Assembly (NCBI GenBank): GCA_022616555.1
Contig: JAKEEG010000006.1
Coordinates: forward strand, 1 to 34,269
From: Ignavibacteriota bacterium
GTDB taxonomy: Bacteria > Bacteroidota > Ignavibacteria > UBA10030
Direction of reading: 5' to 3'
DNA: 34,269 nucleotides
A model generated the notes under the pieces. That model did no database searches. It saw only the letters and a program-made list of their open reading frames with translations, and was not told where the DNA came from. Shown here piece after piece: positions 558 through 31,782 of the stretch. Made by a program: the position numbers and the translations under genes. Within the stretch, counting starts at the first letter, position 1. The number at the start of each line of letters is the position of its first letter.

Positions 558-1007
558 CTACGCTTCCTTCCCGCCTGTTCTTGCAACGTTGAGGAATGCA
601 TCCCGGACAAAGTCGGCTGAATTCGTTTCGAACGCCGGCGGTATGCCTTTCTTCAACTGGTCGTACGTAATCGCCTGGCCGCCCGCTGAAATGGTCATGT
701 TCGGGTTAATAATAATCGACCGTGTCGCGCCTCCGCACTTCATGAGCACGCTGGTTTTAACATTCGGAAATGTCGCGTCGATAACCGCACTAATCTGAAC
801 CGGGACTTTGAGGATTTTCATCGTGTCGGGCGAATCCGCTTCGACATCGATGTTTTGCAACTTGAAAAAAACGAGACTATCCTGCACACATTTGCGCGTA
901 ATCGCTGCAATTTCTTCGGCGATAACGGCAAACTTATCGCGGTCGCCCGTGAATTTCGCCCATTCCTTCACGGTGTTCATGAGAATAGCTTTTGTTGCTT
1001 CGTTCAT
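558..1007 (-). CDS. Hypothetical protein, 149 residues
   Basis: I do not recognise this family. The protein is soluble-looking, with no signal peptide, membrane segment or metal-binding cluster. Residues 1-60 appear helical and rich in Lys, Glu and Ala. The middle (about 65-115) has alternating hydrophobic residues suggesting beta strands, with a conspicuous KCGGATRSIIINPN stretch. The ATG at 1007 is preceded by GGAG at good spacing, and a sigma70-like promoter lies about 40 bases further up, so it is probably a real single-gene transcript. Its downstream neighbour uvrB is separated by the repeat strings, so a functional link is not indicated. Confidence 0.65.
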   Translation of the reverse strand: MNEATKAILMNTVKEWAKFTGDRDKFAVIAEEIAAITRKCVQDSLVFFKLQNIDVEADSPDTMKILKVPVQISAVIDATFPNVKTSVLMKCGGATRSIIINPNMTISAGGQAITYDQLKKGIPPAFETNSADFVRDAFLNVARTGGKEA

Positions 1008-24917: not shown

Positions 24918-27641
24918 TTACTTTTTTCCTGATTGAGCCTGGGCAGCTTGTGCGCTATCGCGCCGCGCGGCCTGCGCTCGCAGCGTTTCAATCTCTCGCT
25001 TGCGTGCCTCCACAAATTCGTTCACGCCTTGCACTAAGGGGTACTGTTCTCTAATGGTATCAAGCAAAGCAGAGGCTTCGTCGAACTTGTTCTGCAGAAC
25101 GTACACCTGCAGAAGAATGAGATACGGATGGTCGCGCGAAAGCTCTTCGGATGTTCCGCTTTGAATAAGCGGCTGGATATCATCTGTCAGCTCGCGCAGA
25201 TATACATTGTACGTCTCTGAATCGCCTGCAAACTCATAATAATTTGCAATCACAAGCTTCAATCTACTCTGCATCGGATGAACGCTGCGAGGAATGACTT
25301 CTTCCATGCGGCTCAGCACCCTGAGAACATGCTCCGGCTCGTTGCGAACATTCAGATAGTACCCTGCCAAAGAAATAAACACCTGCCGATAGTTGCTCAT
25401 CATGCGGCGGGAATCTTCTTCGAAATAGGCGTCTGGGTCGCCCAGGTTGCGCCAGAGGAAGCCGGTCTCAGCTCCCTGCGCAGGCTCCGCACGGTCGGAG
25501 AACAAATGCTCTTCCATTCTCCGGGGGTCGATGTTCGACCATGGCATCGTTTGTTTTTTGGGCAAGAGCCGAAACGCCAAGCCGTCCCAGTGCAGATAAT
25601 CCTGTAAGCCGATTTTCCCAGCGTCATTCACCGTCATCGCAAAATAAATGGGCCGCTTCCAGTCGTTCGTTCTGATAATGTCGTACACCATGAGATCCTG
25701 CACCATCAAACCGCCGTATTGGCCCCATTGGAATGTCGCCGGAAAATGGAACGAAATCGCCTTACGATTTGTGATTGACGTATCTTGAACGCCGTACTTC
25801 TCCAGCACATCCTGAGACACGGGGATTTGGAAATTCTTCGCCTGGTACGGAACGAGCGGCCGGATGGTTTCGATGTACTGGTCGGATGCGCTGATCGGGA
25901 CTTTCTTTGCTCCGTACGGCTCTTCGTTCTTCAACTGGTCGATATACCAATTCGTATTCAACAAACTCAGGCATGCCACGCGCACATCGCGGCGAATTCC
26001 TTCCACATCCTGCAAGTACCAAAGCGGGAAGGTATCATTGTCGCCGTTGGTGAAGATAATAGCATCCTGTTCGAGGCTTTGCAGCGTGTTGTATGAATAA
26101 TCGTATGGTACCCAATTCTTTGAGCGGTCGGCTTCCGGGAGATTCGTGCGGAACATGTTCAACGGCACGACGGCAAACGCGACTACCAGAATGCCGTAGA
26201 CAACCGGCTGTAGATTCTTCGACTCTCCTAATTTCTCCTTTGCAAAGTCGATTAATGAGAGCACGCCCATTCCTATCCACATGGAGAAGAAGAAAAATGA
26301 CCCAACAAAGAAATAATCACGCTCCCGCGGCTGGGGCTCCTGCATGTTCATTTGCAACGCCAAAATGACGCCCAGGATCAGGAAACTTACTATAGCAATG
26401 AACGCCATTTTCTTATCTCGCACCCAATGGTAAAGTGCCCCCCACATCGCGAGAAGGAGTGGTATTCCCCATAACTGTTTCACATCGACACCTGCCTCTT
26501 TGGAGTCGCCTGCCACACCAACGTAATTCCAAAGGAGGTAACGGACATACATCTTATAAACTTGGTAGCGCAAGAGGAAGTCCATGTCGCTTGTATAGTC
26601 CGAGTACATCCGTTGGTGTTCGGGTTGGTCGCTAAACCGGCGTTTGGTCAAAGGCGCGTCGCCGTATTGCTCACGGTTAAGATAAGAAACGAGACGCGTT
26701 AAGTTGTCCGGGTTATTCTCATTCATCGGCGGATTGGCGTTCGCGCGGATAATCACCAGCGCATACACTGAATATCCGATCACAATCAAGACAAACGACA
26801 GAAGCGATACATGAATAACACGGTGGTGTGTTTTCGCTGAGCGATAGATGCCGTACAACGCGCCGGCAATCATAAGAATTGGAATAAACGTAAAAATTTC
26901 ACTCCGCGTGCCGCCCAACTCGCCGTCCAGTAACGAGGGAAACCACTTTACAACGCCGGGATAGATAATGCCGAAGATGACAAGGGCGACAGCGCCGAAT
27001 TTGATAAACGACTGAGCAGAAAATTCATAATACCGGAAGTAAAACAACAGCATTACGGCAGGAAGCGTCAACAGCGCAAGCAAGTGGACACCAACGGACA
27101 AACCGATCACGTAGGCAATAATGAGCAAATAGACGTCGCTGCGTTCCCACTCGGCGCGCTCGTACCATCGAAGGGCAAGCCAGAGGATTGAGCTGACAAA
27201 TAGCATGCTGGGACCGTACACCTCAGCTTCCGATGCGTTAAACCAGAATGTTTTGCTAAAAGCCAGCGAAAGGGCTGCGATGGCAGAAACGCCGTACACG
27301 GCCGTCCGGTCGAGAGCCGATTCCGGTTTTCCGCGCCAGAGGCAAATAAACCGCACGGAAACGAGATAAAGGAACATCACCGTTAACGCGCTGGCGAGCG
27401 TTGAAACGAAATGCATCCGCACTGCGATATCGGGCGAGATGGGAATTAACGAAAAGATCTTTGCAGCCAGCAAGAACAGAGGCGCGCCCGGAGGATGCGG
27501 CACTTGGAGTGAAAACGCCGCTGCGCAGAACTCGCCAACGTCCCAGAACACTACTGTGGGAGGCAGTATGATGATGTACCCGAGAAGCGTAATTGAAAAA
27601 ACACCGATACCGACGTACTTGTTTATTTTTTGATGTTCCAT
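24918..27641 (-). CDS. DUF2723-domain integral membrane protein with C-terminal helical repeats
   Basis: The protein has 907 residues from the ATG at 27641 (MEHQKINKYVGIG); a start seven residues earlier is possible but less convincing. The first 500 or so residues carry about a dozen hydrophobic segments and begin with the family's VFWDVGEFCAAAFSLQVPHPPG motif, containing the Asp-Val-Gly-Glu and His-Pro-Pro-Gly stretches expected for a GT-C glycosyltransferase. An animal relative, TMEM260, is reported to be a protein O-mannosyltransferase, so this could glycosylate exported proteins. Residues 500-740 form a soluble domain with VPYDYSYNTL and FTNGDNDTFPLWYLQDVEG. The tail (about 740-885) is TPR-like and ends in an Ala/Gln/Arg-rich stretch. 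The gene is separate from neighbours. Confidence 0.88.
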   Translation of the reverse strand: MEHQKINKYVGIGVFSITLLGYIIILPPTVVFWDVGEFCAAAFSLQVPHPPGAPLFLLAAKIFSLIPISPDIAVRMHFVSTLASALTVMFLYLVSVRFICLWRGKPESALDRTAVYGVSAIAALSLAFSKTFWFNASEAEVYGPSMLFVSSILWLALRWYERAEWERSDVYLLIIAYVIGLSVGVHLLALLTLPAVMLLFYFRYYEFSAQSFIKFGAVALVIFGIIYPGVVKWFPSLLDGELGGTRSEIFTFIPILMIAGALYGIYRSAKTHHRVIHVSLLSFVLIVIGYSVYALVIIRANANPPMNENNPDNLTRLVSYLNREQYGDAPLTKRRFSDQPEHQRMYSDYTSDMDFLLRYQVYKMYVRYLLWNYVGVAGDSKEAGVDVKQLWGIPLLLAMWGALYHWVRDKKMAFIAIVSFLILGVILALQMNMQEPQPRERDYFFVGSFFFFSMWIGMGVLSLIDFAKEKLGESKNLQPVVYGILVVAFAVVPLNMFRTNLPEADRSKNWVPYDYSYNTLQSLEQDAIIFTNGDNDTFPLWYLQDVEGIRRDVRVACLSLLNTNWYIDQLKNEEPYGAKKVPISASDQYIETIRPLVPYQAKNFQIPVSQDVLEKYGVQDTSITNRKAISFHFPATFQWGQYGGLMVQDLMVYDIIRTNDWKRPIYFAMTVNDAGKIGLQDYLHWDGLAFRLLPKKQTMPWSNIDPRRMEEHLFSDRAEPAQGAETGFLWRNLGDPDAYFEEDSRRMMSNYRQVFISLAGYYLNVRNEPEHVLRVLSRMEEVIPRSVHPMQSRLKLVIANYYEFAGDSETYNVYLRELTDDIQPLIQSGTSEELSRDHPYLILLQVYVLQNKFDEASALLDTIREQYPLVQGVNEFVEARKREIETLRAQAARRDSAQAAQAQSGKK

Positions 27642-27752
27642 GCAATCCTCTATTATGAGCAATCCAGACCGGTTTTCAATCTATTATGAAATAGCCTGAA
27701 CTGCAAGCGTTTTCAACGCCTGCTAGAAGCTCGACCTCAAAAAAGTCCGTCA

Positions 27753-27771
27753 CCCCGAACTTTTTTCGGGG
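27753..27771. repeat. Palindrome CCCCGAA/TTCGGGG
   Basis: CCCCGAA (27753-27759) and TTCGGGG (27765-27771) surround five bases. It lies upstream of the DUF2723 gene. The word resembles an intergenic repeat I recall from other genomes; unverified. Confidence 0.55.
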
Positions 27772-27790
27772 TCTATTTATAGTCGTTTGC

Positions 27791-27900
27791 GTCTGGAGGA
27801 AACTCCTGACGCCACACGGTAACACCCCTTGCGCCTCCTCAACCGCCAAGTTTCTTAATTTCGGTCAGGAGGTAACAACTGACACCACCGAGTAACACCC
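27791..27900. repeat. Two copies of a longer dispersed repeat with the GTCAGGAG palindrome
   Basis: Copy A starts with a 20-base palindrome at 27791-27810 (one mismatch) and copy B with one at 27864-27883. Both continue with a shared tail: about CCAC, a few variable bases, then GTAACACCC (ending near 27829 and 27900). The same head palindrome occurs at 33859-33878 and 33894-33913. Confidence 0.65.
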
Positions 27901-28074
27901 TTTTAGACGTGGCTAGCGCATGCACCGTTCCGAGTGTTAACGTGAGGGCACACCTCTGCGTCGGCGGCTTCGCGTTTTTTTACCAAGACAAACATTGGTC
28001 GCTGAAAAGATCCTTTTTCTCTCGTATGAGGCGTATAAGAGAGCGATATGGTCTGCTGTGTGGGTTCTGGCTTC

Positions 28075-28140
28075 TCTTGACGGGACTGGAGTCCCATCCT
28101 GCTTTTCTTCTTTCTGTTGACAGGCTTGGAATCCAGTTCT
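28075..28140. repeat. Two related short palindromes with TTGAC head
   Basis: TTGACGGGACTGGAGTCCC (from 28077) and TTGACAGGCTTGGAATCC (from 28117) share TTGACnGGnnTGGAnTCC. The first has 5-base arms GGGAC/GTCCC; the second is decayed. They adjoin the structured element. Confidence 0.5.
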
Positions 28141-28151
28141 CAATGTTTCAT

Positions 28152-28470
28152 CCTAACAGAAAAGGCGTCGCACCGAGGCAAAGAGAGAGTTGACGACAAA
28201 TAGATTCACTCGGCACGGCCCGACTGGGAGAATTCCCGCGGGACAAACCCAGAGTTTCCGGAGCCCGTCGCCCGCCTTTGGCGGACGGCGTGTCGTAGGC
28301 CCCTACAAAGGACCCTGAGGGGGGACGCCTTTTGTTAGGAATACGTGACTGTTACGGTTGCCCGCTGGACCGATTCACGGGCAAGCTGCGGATTCGACAA
28401 GCGTCTGCCACCCTTTTCCGCAGAGGGTGATATTGCGCTTGTCAGCATTACCGTATTTAGTTTATTAATG
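28152..28470 (-). ncRNA. Candidate structured non-coding RNA of unknown class
   Basis: Seen in the sequence: two hairpins at the 5' side (28396-28403 with 28436-28443, enclosing 28409-28414 with 28424-28429; and 28358-28364 with 28378-28384), then a compact domain. Its closing stem pairs 28324-28339 with 28152-28169, 16 base pairs with a 2-base bulge. Inside it, stems 28170-28177/28209-28216, 28217-28224/28292-28301 and 28301-28304/28318-28321 abut with almost no unpaired bases, a four-way junction. The second stem has two A-C mismatches on the plus strand that become G-U pairs on the minus strand, agreeing with a strong minus-strand promoter. The 3' end is not determined; no intrinsic terminator was found. 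It lacks recognised hallmarks of tmRNA, RNase P RNA, 6S and SRP RNA. Alternative: several dispersed palindromes that happen to nest. Confidence 0.45.
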
Positions 28471-28476
28471 TAATTT

Positions 28477-28505
28477 AATATAATACACTAATTTGAATTT
28501 GTCAA
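28477..28505 (-). promoter_or_regulatory. Near-consensus sigma70-type promoter for the candidate RNA
   Basis: On the minus strand a perfect TTGACA (28505-28500) is followed after 17 bases by TATATT (28482-28477), 5 of 6 matches, in an A+T-rich region. The expected start is near 28470. It points away from hemW and toward the paired element; the only protein gene downstream, DUF2723, begins about 830 bases later. Confidence 0.6.
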
Positions 28506-28618
28506 GAGAAAAAATAAAAAATGTACACTTTCCCGCTAACAGCTTGAGGCGCAGAGACTTACAGCCGATTACATTTTACATTTTCGGTTTGATGTTCCGG
28601 AAATTGCCACGATGAACA

Positions 28619-29776
28619 TTAGATGAGGAAGGAAGCGCAAATCTCATCGCACAGCGGGTAGCCTTTGGCGGTCAGCTTAAAGCGGTCGTCATGAAGAACG
28701 GCAAGCCGCTCATTCAACAGGTGTTCAATCGTTTGTCGATGTGTTGCGAACAAATCGGTATCGTACCGTTTCCGGAATCCCGCGATGTCCACGCCCTCAC
28801 TACGGAGCCCCAAAAAGAGCTCCTCGTTACGCAACTGGTCGACGTTCAAGCGCTCATCTCCGGCAACCGGCAACACGTGTTGCTCCAGGCGCGTCGAGTA
28901 CTCAACGACGTTAGCGACATTCCACCAGCGCTGCCGCTCCCAGAAGGAATGCGCAGAGGGGCCGAATCCGAGGTAATTGCTATGGTTCCAGTAATTACCA
29001 TTATGGCGGGATTTGTAACCGGGTTGCGCGAAGTTGGAGACTTCGTATTGCTCATAGCCGTGCGATGCGAGAAAGTCTATCGTGAATTCGTACAGTTCCG
29101 CATCGGCTTCCGCGCTGAGCGGCATCACTTGCTTCGATTCCACCATACGATGCAGGGGTGTGTTCGGTTCAACGATAAGGCTGTAGGTGGAGATATGTTT
29201 TGGTGCAAGCTCCATCGCTTGTTCAAGGTTCGAACGCCAGCGTTCGCGCGTTTGAGACGGCAGTGCAAAAATCAAATCGAAGCTCACATTGTCAAAGCCG
29301 GCTTGATACGCATTCCGTACGCATTCCTTCGCCTGTTCTGCCGAGTGAATCCGGCTCAGGAATTTCAAATCGTCGTCGTGAAACGACTGGATACCCATGC
29401 TGATTCGGTTTACGCCCGCTGCTTTGAATTGCCTGAGTTTCTCGATGTCCACCGTTCCGGGGTTTGTCTCCAGTGTAATTTCCGCGCCCGAGAGGACCTG
29501 GAAGCGCGTAGAGAGAAGGTTAAGGATTTCCTTTATCTCGGACAGCGCGAGCAGCGACGGCGTGCCACCGCCAAAAAAGATTGTCTCGTAGGGAACCTGA
29601 AACCGCTCGTCCCCCGAACGCACATCGACTTCCTTTTTGAGTGAGTCTAAGAACCGCTGAACAAGCGCGCTATACGCGTCCGCGCTGCCGTTGGGTGCAA
29701 CGGAGTAGAAGTCGCAGTAGATGCACTTGTGCTCGCAAAAAGGAATATGGAGGTAGAGACTGGACATAGATTTCAT
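28619..29776 (-). CDS. hemW: HemW-type radical SAM protein (coproporphyrinogen III oxidase-like)
   Basis: HemW proteins bind an iron-sulfur cluster and S-adenosylmethionine and act as heme chaperones; they were long annotated as oxygen-independent coproporphyrinogen oxidase. The 385-residue protein has the radical SAM motif CEHKCIYC (Cys14, Cys18, Cys21) with the following DFYS, the FFGGGTPSLL loop near 69-78, ETNPGTVD, NRISMGIQSFHDDDLKFLSRIHS, and the C-terminal HemN-like domain with NYLGFGPSAHSF. The short N-terminus, without the extra cysteine region of true HemN, supports HemW. The start at 29776 directly abuts the lepB stop, so it belongs to the lepA-lepB-lepB-hemW run. It ends next to the intergenic candidate RNA. 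Confidence 0.92.
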   Translation of the reverse strand: MKSMSSLYLHIPFCEHKCIYCDFYSVAPNGSADAYSALVQRFLDSLKKEVDVRSGDERFQVPYETIFFGGGTPSLLALSEIKEILNLLSTRFQVLSGAEITLETNPGTVDIEKLRQFKAAGVNRISMGIQSFHDDDLKFLSRIHSAEQAKECVRNAYQAGFDNVSFDLIFALPSQTRERWRSNLEQAMELAPKHISTYSLIVEPNTPLHRMVESKQVMPLSAEADAELYEFTIDFLASHGYEQYEVSNFAQPGYKSRHNGNYWNHSNYLGFGPSAHSFWERQRWWNVANVVEYSTRLEQHVLPVAGDERLNVDQLRNEELFLGLRSEGVDIAGFRKRYDTDLFATHRQTIEHLLNERLAVLHDDRFKLTAKGYPLCDEICASFLI

Positions 29777-30745
29777 TTATCGTATCATTGTGCCGATTCT
29801 ATTCCACCGAATGCTGACGAGTTTATCCCGCACACTGCTCACCGGTACGGCGGGGTTCCACGACCAATAGACAAACAACGCCTCGCCAATCAAATTGCTT
29901 TCCGGGACAAATCCCCAATACCTGCTATCGAGGCTGTTATCGCGGTTATCGCCCATCACAAAATAATAATTCTGTTCAACAGTGTATGACGATGACGGTT
30001 TACCATCGATCAGTATCTCGTCGCTCCCACGGAGTTGAACCGTATGTCCCTCCCGCTGAATGACCAAACGCCACATGCCCAAATTTTCCTCTGTGAGGGC
30101 GATACGGTCACCCTTTTGGGGAATAACAAGCGGCCCGTAACGTTCCTCGGTAAAACCGAATCCCCACGGAAACATGGTCGAGCTACGGTGGCGTCCAGCG
30201 GCATTGTATTCGTTCAACCGAGCGTGCCGGGGCAATCCCACCGGATTGCCGTTGACATACACCTGTCCGCGAATGATTTCAACAACATCGCCCGGCAACC
30301 CGATGCACCGCTTGATATAATTTACAGGCTCATCTTCACCTTGCACATTTTGTACATTGGGTGAATCTATCGAGCCGGGGAACTCAAACACCAGAATATC
30401 CCCGCGTTCCACGCTCTTAAACACCGGCGCGTAGTACGTGGGGATAGCGAGGTTCGTCAGCGGAATATACCGTGGCGTGCGAATACCGTACGCCAATTTA
30501 TTGACGAGTAAAAAATCACCGACAAGCAGCGTCTCCTCCATCGAGCTGGATGGAATGCGAAACGCTTCCACCACAAAGGCTTTCAGCAACAGCGCAACGA
30601 GCAGAGTGACGAGCACAGTCCTTGCATATCCGGCAAACGAGTGCAAGCGTTTACTCGAAAGCGCACGCTGCCCGACCGGCGCTTCTTCCGCCACCGTCAC
30701 TGCGATACTTTGCTGCGATGCGTTTTGTATTGATTCCTCGTTCAT
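29777..30745 (-). CDS. lepB: Signal peptidase I (second copy in tandem)
   Basis: Type I signal peptidases cut signal peptides from exported proteins at the outer face of the inner membrane. The 322-residue protein has one membrane segment (about 43-62), then the Ser box IPSSSMEETLLVGDFLLVNK with catalytic Ser68 and the Lys box VNYIKRCIGLPGD with catalytic Lys145. The conserved GDNRDNSLDSRYWGFV lies near 275. It directly follows the other lepB and immediately precedes hemW. Both copies hold the catalytic pair, so both may be active, perhaps with different substrates. It has a Gln/Ala/Ser-rich N-terminal tail that is probably cytoplasmic. Confidence 0.95.
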   Translation of the reverse strand: MNEESIQNASQQSIAVTVAEEAPVGQRALSSKRLHSFAGYARTVLVTLLVALLLKAFVVEAFRIPSSSMEETLLVGDFLLVNKLAYGIRTPRYIPLTNLAIPTYYAPVFKSVERGDILVFEFPGSIDSPNVQNVQGEDEPVNYIKRCIGLPGDVVEIIRGQVYVNGNPVGLPRHARLNEYNAAGRHRSSTMFPWGFGFTEERYGPLVIPQKGDRIALTEENLGMWRLVIQREGHTVQLRGSDEILIDGKPSSSYTVEQNYYFVMGDNRDNSLDSRYWGFVPESNLIGEALFVYWSWNPAVPVSSVRDKLVSIRWNRIGTMIR

Positions 30746-30750
30746 TTCAT

Positions 30751-31680
30751 TTATTTAATCAGGGTTCCAATACGGCTCAGCCTCACCGACCCTAACTTAT
30801 CGATCAGCGAATACAGAGGGATGTTTGGGTCCCAAGACCAATAGACAATCATCGGCGTGCCGACAAGGTTTTCTCGCGGGATAAAACCCCAGTAGCGGCT
30901 GTCGAGGCTATTATCGCGGTTGTCGCCCATGCCGAAAAGATAATCGCGCTCCACAACGTACTCGGTCACTTCCTGTCCGTCAATAAGGACCTTCCCATCA
31001 ACCAATCTGGGCTGATGACCTTCCCGTTTAATGAAGACCTCCCACGCGCTGAGATTCTGCGGAGTGAGCGAAATCCGCATTCCTTTTTTTGGAACAACGA
31101 GTGGACCGTAATTATCTTCATTCCACATAGAGCTTTTCGGGAATATTCCCTCTACCGCTACGCCGGGCGGCAACACCTCGCCACGATTGAATTTCAAATT
31201 GCGCGGCAATGGGAACTGCTCGCCATTCACGTACACGACGCGGTTCACCACCTGTACCGTATCTCCGGGAAGTCCAACGCACCTTTTAAGGTAGAACGTG
31301 AACTCTTCCGGTTCCACTTCATCCCGGAATCCCGGGAACACAAAGACGATCACATCACCGCGCTCGACGTCCTGGAAGCCCGGCACGCGAAACCACGGCA
31401 GGCGGACGTTGGTGAACGGAATATTCCGCGGCGAGGTGCCGCCGTAAATGAATTTATTGACAAAGAGTAAATCGCCAGCCATCACCTCGTTTTCCATCGA
31501 GCCGGTCGGCACCATGAACGACGCGAGAACGAAATTGTTCAGCACTAAAAAGGCGCCGAGCACAATAAAAAATTCTTTAAAGAACGCTTTCGTTTTCTCA
31601 ACGAGCGCGGAAGATTTCTGCTCTTTTTTCTTTTGTTCCTTCTCCTGCTCTTTTTCGGTCCCAAGTTCTTGTTCAGACAT
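30751..31680 (-). CDS. lepB: Signal peptidase I (first copy in tandem)
   Basis: A second full type I signal peptidase. The ATG at 31680 (MSEQELGTEKEQEKEQKKKE) is chosen; an upstream in-frame start at 31776 would add 32 residues encoded partly by a palindromic repeat region and is unlikely. The 309-residue protein has a charged Glu/Lys-rich N-terminus, a membrane segment (about 33-56), the Ser box VPTGSMENEVMAGDLLFVNK with Ser61, and the Lys box FYLKRCVGLPGD with Lys132. GDNRDNSLDSRYWGFIP lies near 255. The repeat-filled gap of 138 bases separates it from lepA; the other lepB begins 5 bases after its stop. Confidence 0.94.
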   Translation of the reverse strand: MSEQELGTEKEQEKEQKKKEQKSSALVEKTKAFFKEFFIVLGAFLVLNNFVLASFMVPTGSMENEVMAGDLLFVNKFIYGGTSPRNIPFTNVRLPWFRVPGFQDVERGDVIVFVFPGFRDEVEPEEFTFYLKRCVGLPGDTVQVVNRVVYVNGEQFPLPRNLKFNRGEVLPPGVAVEGIFPKSSMWNEDNYGPLVVPKKGMRISLTPQNLSAWEVFIKREGHQPRLVDGKVLIDGQEVTEYVVERDYLFGMGDNRDNSLDSRYWGFIPRENLVGTPMIVYWSWDPNIPLYSLIDKLGSVRLSRIGTLIK

Positions 31681-31729
31681 AGTAGCCCTTTCTGTGAATT
31701 TCTCTAACTCTGAGTAGGACGGACATTTG

Positions 31730-31747
31730 CCGAAGACATTCCTTCGG
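31730..31747. repeat. Palindrome CCGAAG/CTTCGG between lepA and lepB
   Basis: CCGAAG (31730-31735) and CTTCGG (31742-31747) surround six bases. The arms match the inner part of the palindrome inside rsmD (7781-7807), so the two may be of one family. Confidence 0.5.
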
Positions 31748-31782
31748 GACCTGTCTGCCCTCGTTGTCTTCTTCAAAACTCT

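Follow-up and report, generated by a model that had tools for sequence, protein, structure and literature searches.

A stretch of intergenic DNA between hemW and a DUF2723 gene in an Ignavibacteriota genome encodes one member of a structured, strand-specific RNA family, which the comparative sequence data make almost certain to be real. The family is previously undescribed and is confined to one sampled genome, where it comprises two subfamilies, about 20 copies, a common promoter architecture and modular leaders. From these features we infer a set of some 20 stand-alone, co-regulated structured RNAs, with the copy in the window (the whole 34,269-nt stretch of DNA analysed) as one gene, a reading that we regard as evenly poised between right and wrong. 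An earlier note on this DNA had proposed a new structured RNA class here, and covariation among paralogues of the same genome now supports that interpretation; the existence of the wider gene family goes beyond it.

A blastn search with positions 28130-28520 as the query returned nine more distinct copies in the same genome, with 73-87% identity across the greater part of the ~190-nt core; it gave no match in 60 relatives. A covariance model built from these ten copies, which define subfamily A (model R1), recovered another A copy together with seven diverged copies of a second subfamily, B (E 8e-14 to 5e-7), and a combined model (R2) added two further copies. In all, 20 distinct copies were recovered, from intergenic sites unrelated to one another: 11 A copies, window copy included, and nine B copies, among them a divergent one (C84) and a truncated one (C30), with mirror-image copies on contig C31 counted once. 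The cores of A and B are only ~71% identical and adopt a common multi-helix fold. Pairwise core identity reaches a maximum of 94%, the medians being 83% (A) and 88% (B), and near-identical copies are absent. The copies share descent, and copy counts are not independent.

Contig C31 (1-125326) itself appears self-reverse-complementary, with 100206-100396 mapping exactly onto 24931-25121 between identical flanks, probably through an artefact of assembly by which genes are duplicated. Other dispersed repeats (GAAATCGAGGCGGTGTGCG..., at most 200 nt, 75-95% identical) cluster near RNA copies, downstream of C6, C71, C26, C5 and C84 and upstream of C64 and C40. Additionally, downstream of two A copies lies a paralogous stretch with 74% DNA identity (L002, +713..893; L010, +603..780; counted from the core start), near small basic ORFs that contain an RRPKP motif.

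The window copy, read on the minus strand from promoter to tail, is organised as follows.

28576-28581, 28569-28574 and 28559-28563, minus strand: three operator-like TTACA/TGTAA half-sites (enriched 5-mers) 5' of the promoter
28505-28500 (TTGACA) and 28482-28477 (TATATT), minus strand: -35 and -10 elements of a sigma-70-type promoter, 17-nt spacer, 11 of 12 consensus matches
28468-28473, minus strand: fourth TTACA/TGTAA half-site
28341-28470, minus strand: 5' leader, variable between copies; its two hairpins (28396-28443 and 28358-28384) appear in the minimum-energy fold
28150-28340, minus strand: conserved A-type RNA core (model R1 positions 1-193, 196 bits)
28323-28340, minus strand: 5' strand of P1, the closing helix, paired to 28151-28169
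28151-28169, minus strand: 3' strand of P1, GACGCCTTTTCTGTTAGGA
28248-28321, minus strand: arm P2-P3-P4, in which 11 pairs are changed on both sides among A copies (P2 28321-28310/28259-28248; P3 28303-28298/28265-28260; P4 28290-28281/28275-28266)
28217-28244, minus strand: arm P5, a variable hairpin in which four of five pairs covary across A and B
28170-28216, minus strand: arm P6 (stem 28216-28209/28177-28170) with the highly conserved loop UGAAUCUAUUUGUCGUCAACU
28291-28296 (ACGACA, P3/P4 internal loop) and 28198-28193 (UGUCGU, P6 loop), minus strand: candidate pseudoknot
28044-28149, minus strand: purine-rich 3' tail with CCATATCG at its end (28051-28044), an instance of the ACATAYCG motif

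The near-consensus minus-strand promoter that the earlier note had described is thus in place, and 28477-28505 is the sole promoter-like site detected across 27660-28620; transcription of the window copy would start near 28470. Both of the 5' hairpins that it had described are likewise present. The domain that it had closed with 16 base pairs is formed by CCTAACAAAAGGCGTC (28339-28324) and 28152-28169, as 16 bp with one 2-nt bulge, and the proposed four-way junction corresponds to P1 enclosing three arms (P2-P4, P5 and P6).

Folding energy surpasses that of shuffles to a moderate degree (z of -3.2 on the minus and -3.6 on the plus strand) but does not discriminate between the strands, and since both score alike it was dropped as strand evidence. 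The minus strand was instead chosen on the covariation, the position of the promoter and an excess of G-U pairs, energy alone being insufficient. Across the alignment there are 60 G-U cells vs 13 A-C cells, which indicates that the minus strand is the functional RNA and, by inference, the one transcribed. Stem P6 illustrates this point: as the earlier note had seen, two A-C mismatches of the plus strand are wobble pairs on the minus strand (U-G and G-U), and over 10 copies the first of these positions is U-G in nine (C-G in one) and the second G-U in all 10.

Within A, 15 of 63 pairs carry two-sided changes vs 7.5 +- 1.8 in shuffles, and the covariation score is 0.198 vs 0.115 +- 0.010. The A structure pairs 93.1% of cells; sliding the partners by 1-3 columns reduces this to below 50%, and the covariation of every slid structure is far lower. 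For A and B together, 95.1% of cells are paired and 16 of 44 pairs are changed on both sides vs 8.1 +- 1.7 in shuffles, this structure having been derived from the same alignment (A3) that was used for the count. Helix P2 provides a clear example, with CAGAGUCC/GGACUCUCUG in A replaced by GGGGUUC/GAACCCC in B. The conserved fold therefore displays the strand-specific covariation of a structured noncoding RNA. Furthermore, core lengths differ modulo 3, so that no reading frame is kept and the RNA is noncoding. A copies hardly vary in the P6 loop UGAAUCUAUUUGUCGUCAACU, and ACGACA and UGUCGU are invariant across 10 aligned A copies, giving complementarity without covariation; from the sequence, a pseudoknot between them is possible in A, and an equivalent in B, sought by eye, was not found.

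The ends of the core raise the question of whether the conserved entity is DNA, either a folded single-stranded attC site or a REP-like palindrome, with the RNA incidental. In other copies P1 consists of TCCTAAC/GTTAGGA and AGGCGTC/GACGCCT, with the outer strand diverged or interrupted in a few. The ends TCCTAAC...GTTAGGA resemble attC R boxes, and the copies are dispersed, as such elements would be. Nevertheless, the outer base of these ends (T/A in most copies) misfits RYYYAAC/GTTRRRY, about 90 internal positions are conserved, unlike the otherwise unconserved hairpin of integron attC sites, the fold is a multi-arm junction and not a single hairpin, and a fixed promoter precedes every copy. 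We consider a DNA-level element very improbable.

Comparison with known families returned nothing that would name this RNA. The window and 13 copy loci gave no hit at the gathering score to the covariance models of Rfam 15 (RNase P, tmRNA, 6S, SRP, HEARO, riboswitches, ROOL, GOLLD and OLE included), which bears out, even for diverged paralogues, the earlier failure to match the RNA to known classes. Permissive Rfam scans yielded scattered hits at chance level, none of them consistent for A or B, and ARAGORN found no tmRNA or tRNA gene at five copy loci. Many bacterial RNA families diverge quickly, and a very diverged member of a known family might for that reason have been missed by the Rfam models; with no gathering-level hit over 13 copies, no consistent weak hit and no tmRNA or tRNA, this too is hardly likely. 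A literature search found no description of such an RNA family.

The family was equally absent from searches beyond its own genome. No copy was found in 97 other genomes of the order by DNA and covariance-model searches, in 31 other genomes of the family with deeper scoring, in samples of the class and phylum, searched with strict filters and six candidates scored per genome, or in phages and plasmids by blastn. A pattern scan over 84,980 species gave a lone hit (L034) with no covariance-model match, and a viral-contig hit (L073) matched over only 30 nt in an apparently coding region; both are taken as chance. The expectation that relatives would conserve the paired arms has therefore fared in two ways, relatives lacking the RNA altogether and 19 paralogues of the same genome preserving these arms through compensatory changes.

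Each of the 19 copies for which upstream DNA is available possesses a promoter of TTGACA type with TATAxT at 16-17-nt spacing, 93-260 nt before the core. Between -90 and +55 these copies contain 57 TTACA/TGTAA 5-mers vs 15.8 +- 3.5 in shuffles, an enrichment that is inflated by their common ancestry, and every copy has some; a regulator may bind these half-sites. The genome holds four instances of the promoter-region pattern TTTTACATTTTC..TTGAC, and every one of them precedes a copy. Such a common promoter pattern suggests, at the level of sequence, that the copies form one regulon. At the other end, 16 of the 17 copies that could be tested have ACATAYCG (at most one mismatch) after the purine-rich tail, 42-104 nt 3' of the core, and no clear intrinsic terminator was found close after the core.

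The leaders present a further pattern. A G+C-rich self-complementary hexamer lies in a predicted hairpin loop in 12 of 19 leaders, vs a shuffle mean of 0.53 and a maximum of 2 (60 sets); several leaders share ancestry, so that the palindromic loops may amount to some six independent classes. These classes recur on different stems: AACGGCCAM in C9 and C20, GAGCUC in C71, C5 and C26, UGGCCA in C49, C70, C74, C87 and C84, and GGGCCC in C40 and C69. The AACGGCCAM loops and two other members fall outside the 12, their hexamer being not fully self-complementary or partly in a predicted stem. All four classes hold both A and B cores; the window copy's own leader loops are not palindromic. Indeed, an A and a B copy can resemble each other more closely in leader or promoter than do members of one subfamily (the C71 and C5 leaders score 94 vs a null maximum of 35, and the C64 and C84 promoters are 88% identical), which implies that modules have been exchanged between copies.

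These observations suggest, on predicted loops, that the leaders could form kissing-loop dimers. Each gene unit comprises its own promoter with upstream half-sites, a variable leader hairpin, a ~190-nt A or B core and a purine-rich tail. Minus-strand transcripts of the copies would be co-regulated and the RNA would act in trans, with self-complementary leader loops (GGCC, GAGCUC, GGGCCC, UGCA and CUAG) pairing like-looped copies into homodimers or A-B dimers and the core offering a platform for a protein or RNA partner. We favour this trans-acting mechanism through leader kissing loops because every copy retains promoter and core, and because the loops persist on changing stems; our support for it is tentative and falls a little short of even. 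It is tempting to speculate further that about 20 co-regulated RNAs, with two interchangeable cores and palindromic loop specificities in exchangeable leaders, would form defined homodimers and A-B dimers as a multi-member RNA assembly or regulatory code, a proposal that we think rather unlikely to hold.

The genomic neighbourhood bears on whether the RNA might instead act in cis, as a riboswitch-like leader controlling the downstream gene. The window copy does sit in the hemW-DUF2723 gap, oriented like both genes, and a promoter precedes it. Across copies, the next ORF is 72-809 nt distant, lies on the opposite strand in five of 18 and shows no common function; these neighbours look unrelated, unlike the consistent 5' UTR position before related genes expected of a cis-regulatory leader. 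Relatives, moreover, keep DUF2723 after hemW without the RNA. A cis-acting leader is on this evidence improbable. Flanking ORFs, read by eye, are apparently unrelated and largely housekeeping genes on either strand, which argues for action in trans. Some contain C-terminal QNYPNPFNP motifs, which we take to mark cargo of type IX secretion and which suggest a place on the Bacteroidota/Ignavibacteria side.

The gap between hemW and DUF2723 measures 977 nt here; for 21 relatives within the family the median is 121 nt, and their loci gave no significant RNA match. A short, empty gap in relatives implies that the RNA gene was gained here or lost in all of those relatives, and sequence comparison makes gain in this lineage the probable course. 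One relative (L062, genome G005) has an 879-nt gap with no R2 match. In the window, two consecutive signal peptidase I (lepB) genes occupy 29777-31776, followed by hemW and DUF2723, an order kept in most of the family.

Gain of this kind, together with some 20 copies at unrelated sites, no recognised common neighbour genes, absence from all relatives searched and modular exchange of leaders, promoters and cores, could instead mark a selfish dispersed element: a mobile or repeat-sequence candidate, or a bacterial SINE analogue, that is self-transcribed and whose structure is kept for spreading. Multicopy occurrence is a criterion for mobile or repeat candidates (PMC11109978), and the 20 copies in this genome do occupy variable sites. 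Presence in a single genome would be unusual for an essential RNA and also fits a selfish element. Against this, the lack of near-identical copies gives no sign of recent spreading, no transposase was recognised among the flanking ORFs by eye, and terminal repeats were not recognised. Of the transposase, integrase, nuclease and helicase genes that accompany mobile or repeat candidates, the same reading by eye showed a single possible case, a DEAD-box helicase-like ORF that precedes one of the copies. A retroelement-mobilised RNA (group II intron, retron or SINE-like) needs a reverse transcriptase, and PF00078 gave no match in this 98% complete assembly, with positive controls in three genomes. 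Promoters are kept in all copies, and the G-U bias of the covariation is that of an RNA. We hold a selfish element to be a genuine possibility, at a level well below even.

The features of these probably co-regulated RNAs recall several known systems, from each of which they differ. To our knowledge, structured RNA families of this complexity usually have few copies spread over many genera; some 20 copies that bear promoters and fall into two diverged core types, all in one sampled genome, are unusual and would offer a tractable case of the birth of an RNA gene family. Sibling sRNAs, as far as we know, are small with simple stem-loops, and the present RNAs differ from them in their large junction core, its two subfamilies and their exchangeable leaders. 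They resemble the sibling sRNAs of Neisseria (PMC5362039) and LhrC of Listeria (PMC13350326) in having several paralogous, independently promoted and probably co-regulated RNAs per genome. Mobile or repeat-sequence candidates and REP elements (PMC11109978, PMC12306157) similarly have many dispersed, structured intergenic copies; here, unlike in those elements, every copy has a promoter, the fold is a four-way junction and no linked transposase is recognised. If selfish, the family would stand as the bacterial equivalent of SINE-like, self-transcribed elements, with no reverse transcriptase recognised. The ornate RNAs OLE, ROOL and GOLLD form RNA-only multimers assembled partly by kissing loops (PMC12286853). 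In contrast to these, the present RNAs have no Rfam match, are far smaller (a ~190-nt core plus leader), occur as about 20 dispersed copies and show no link to phages. They share with OLE, ROOL and GOLLD an intricate fold without coding potential, and the kissing loops proposed here from predicted leader loops would, if they truly pair copies, constitute a natural multi-specificity system of RNA dimerisation.
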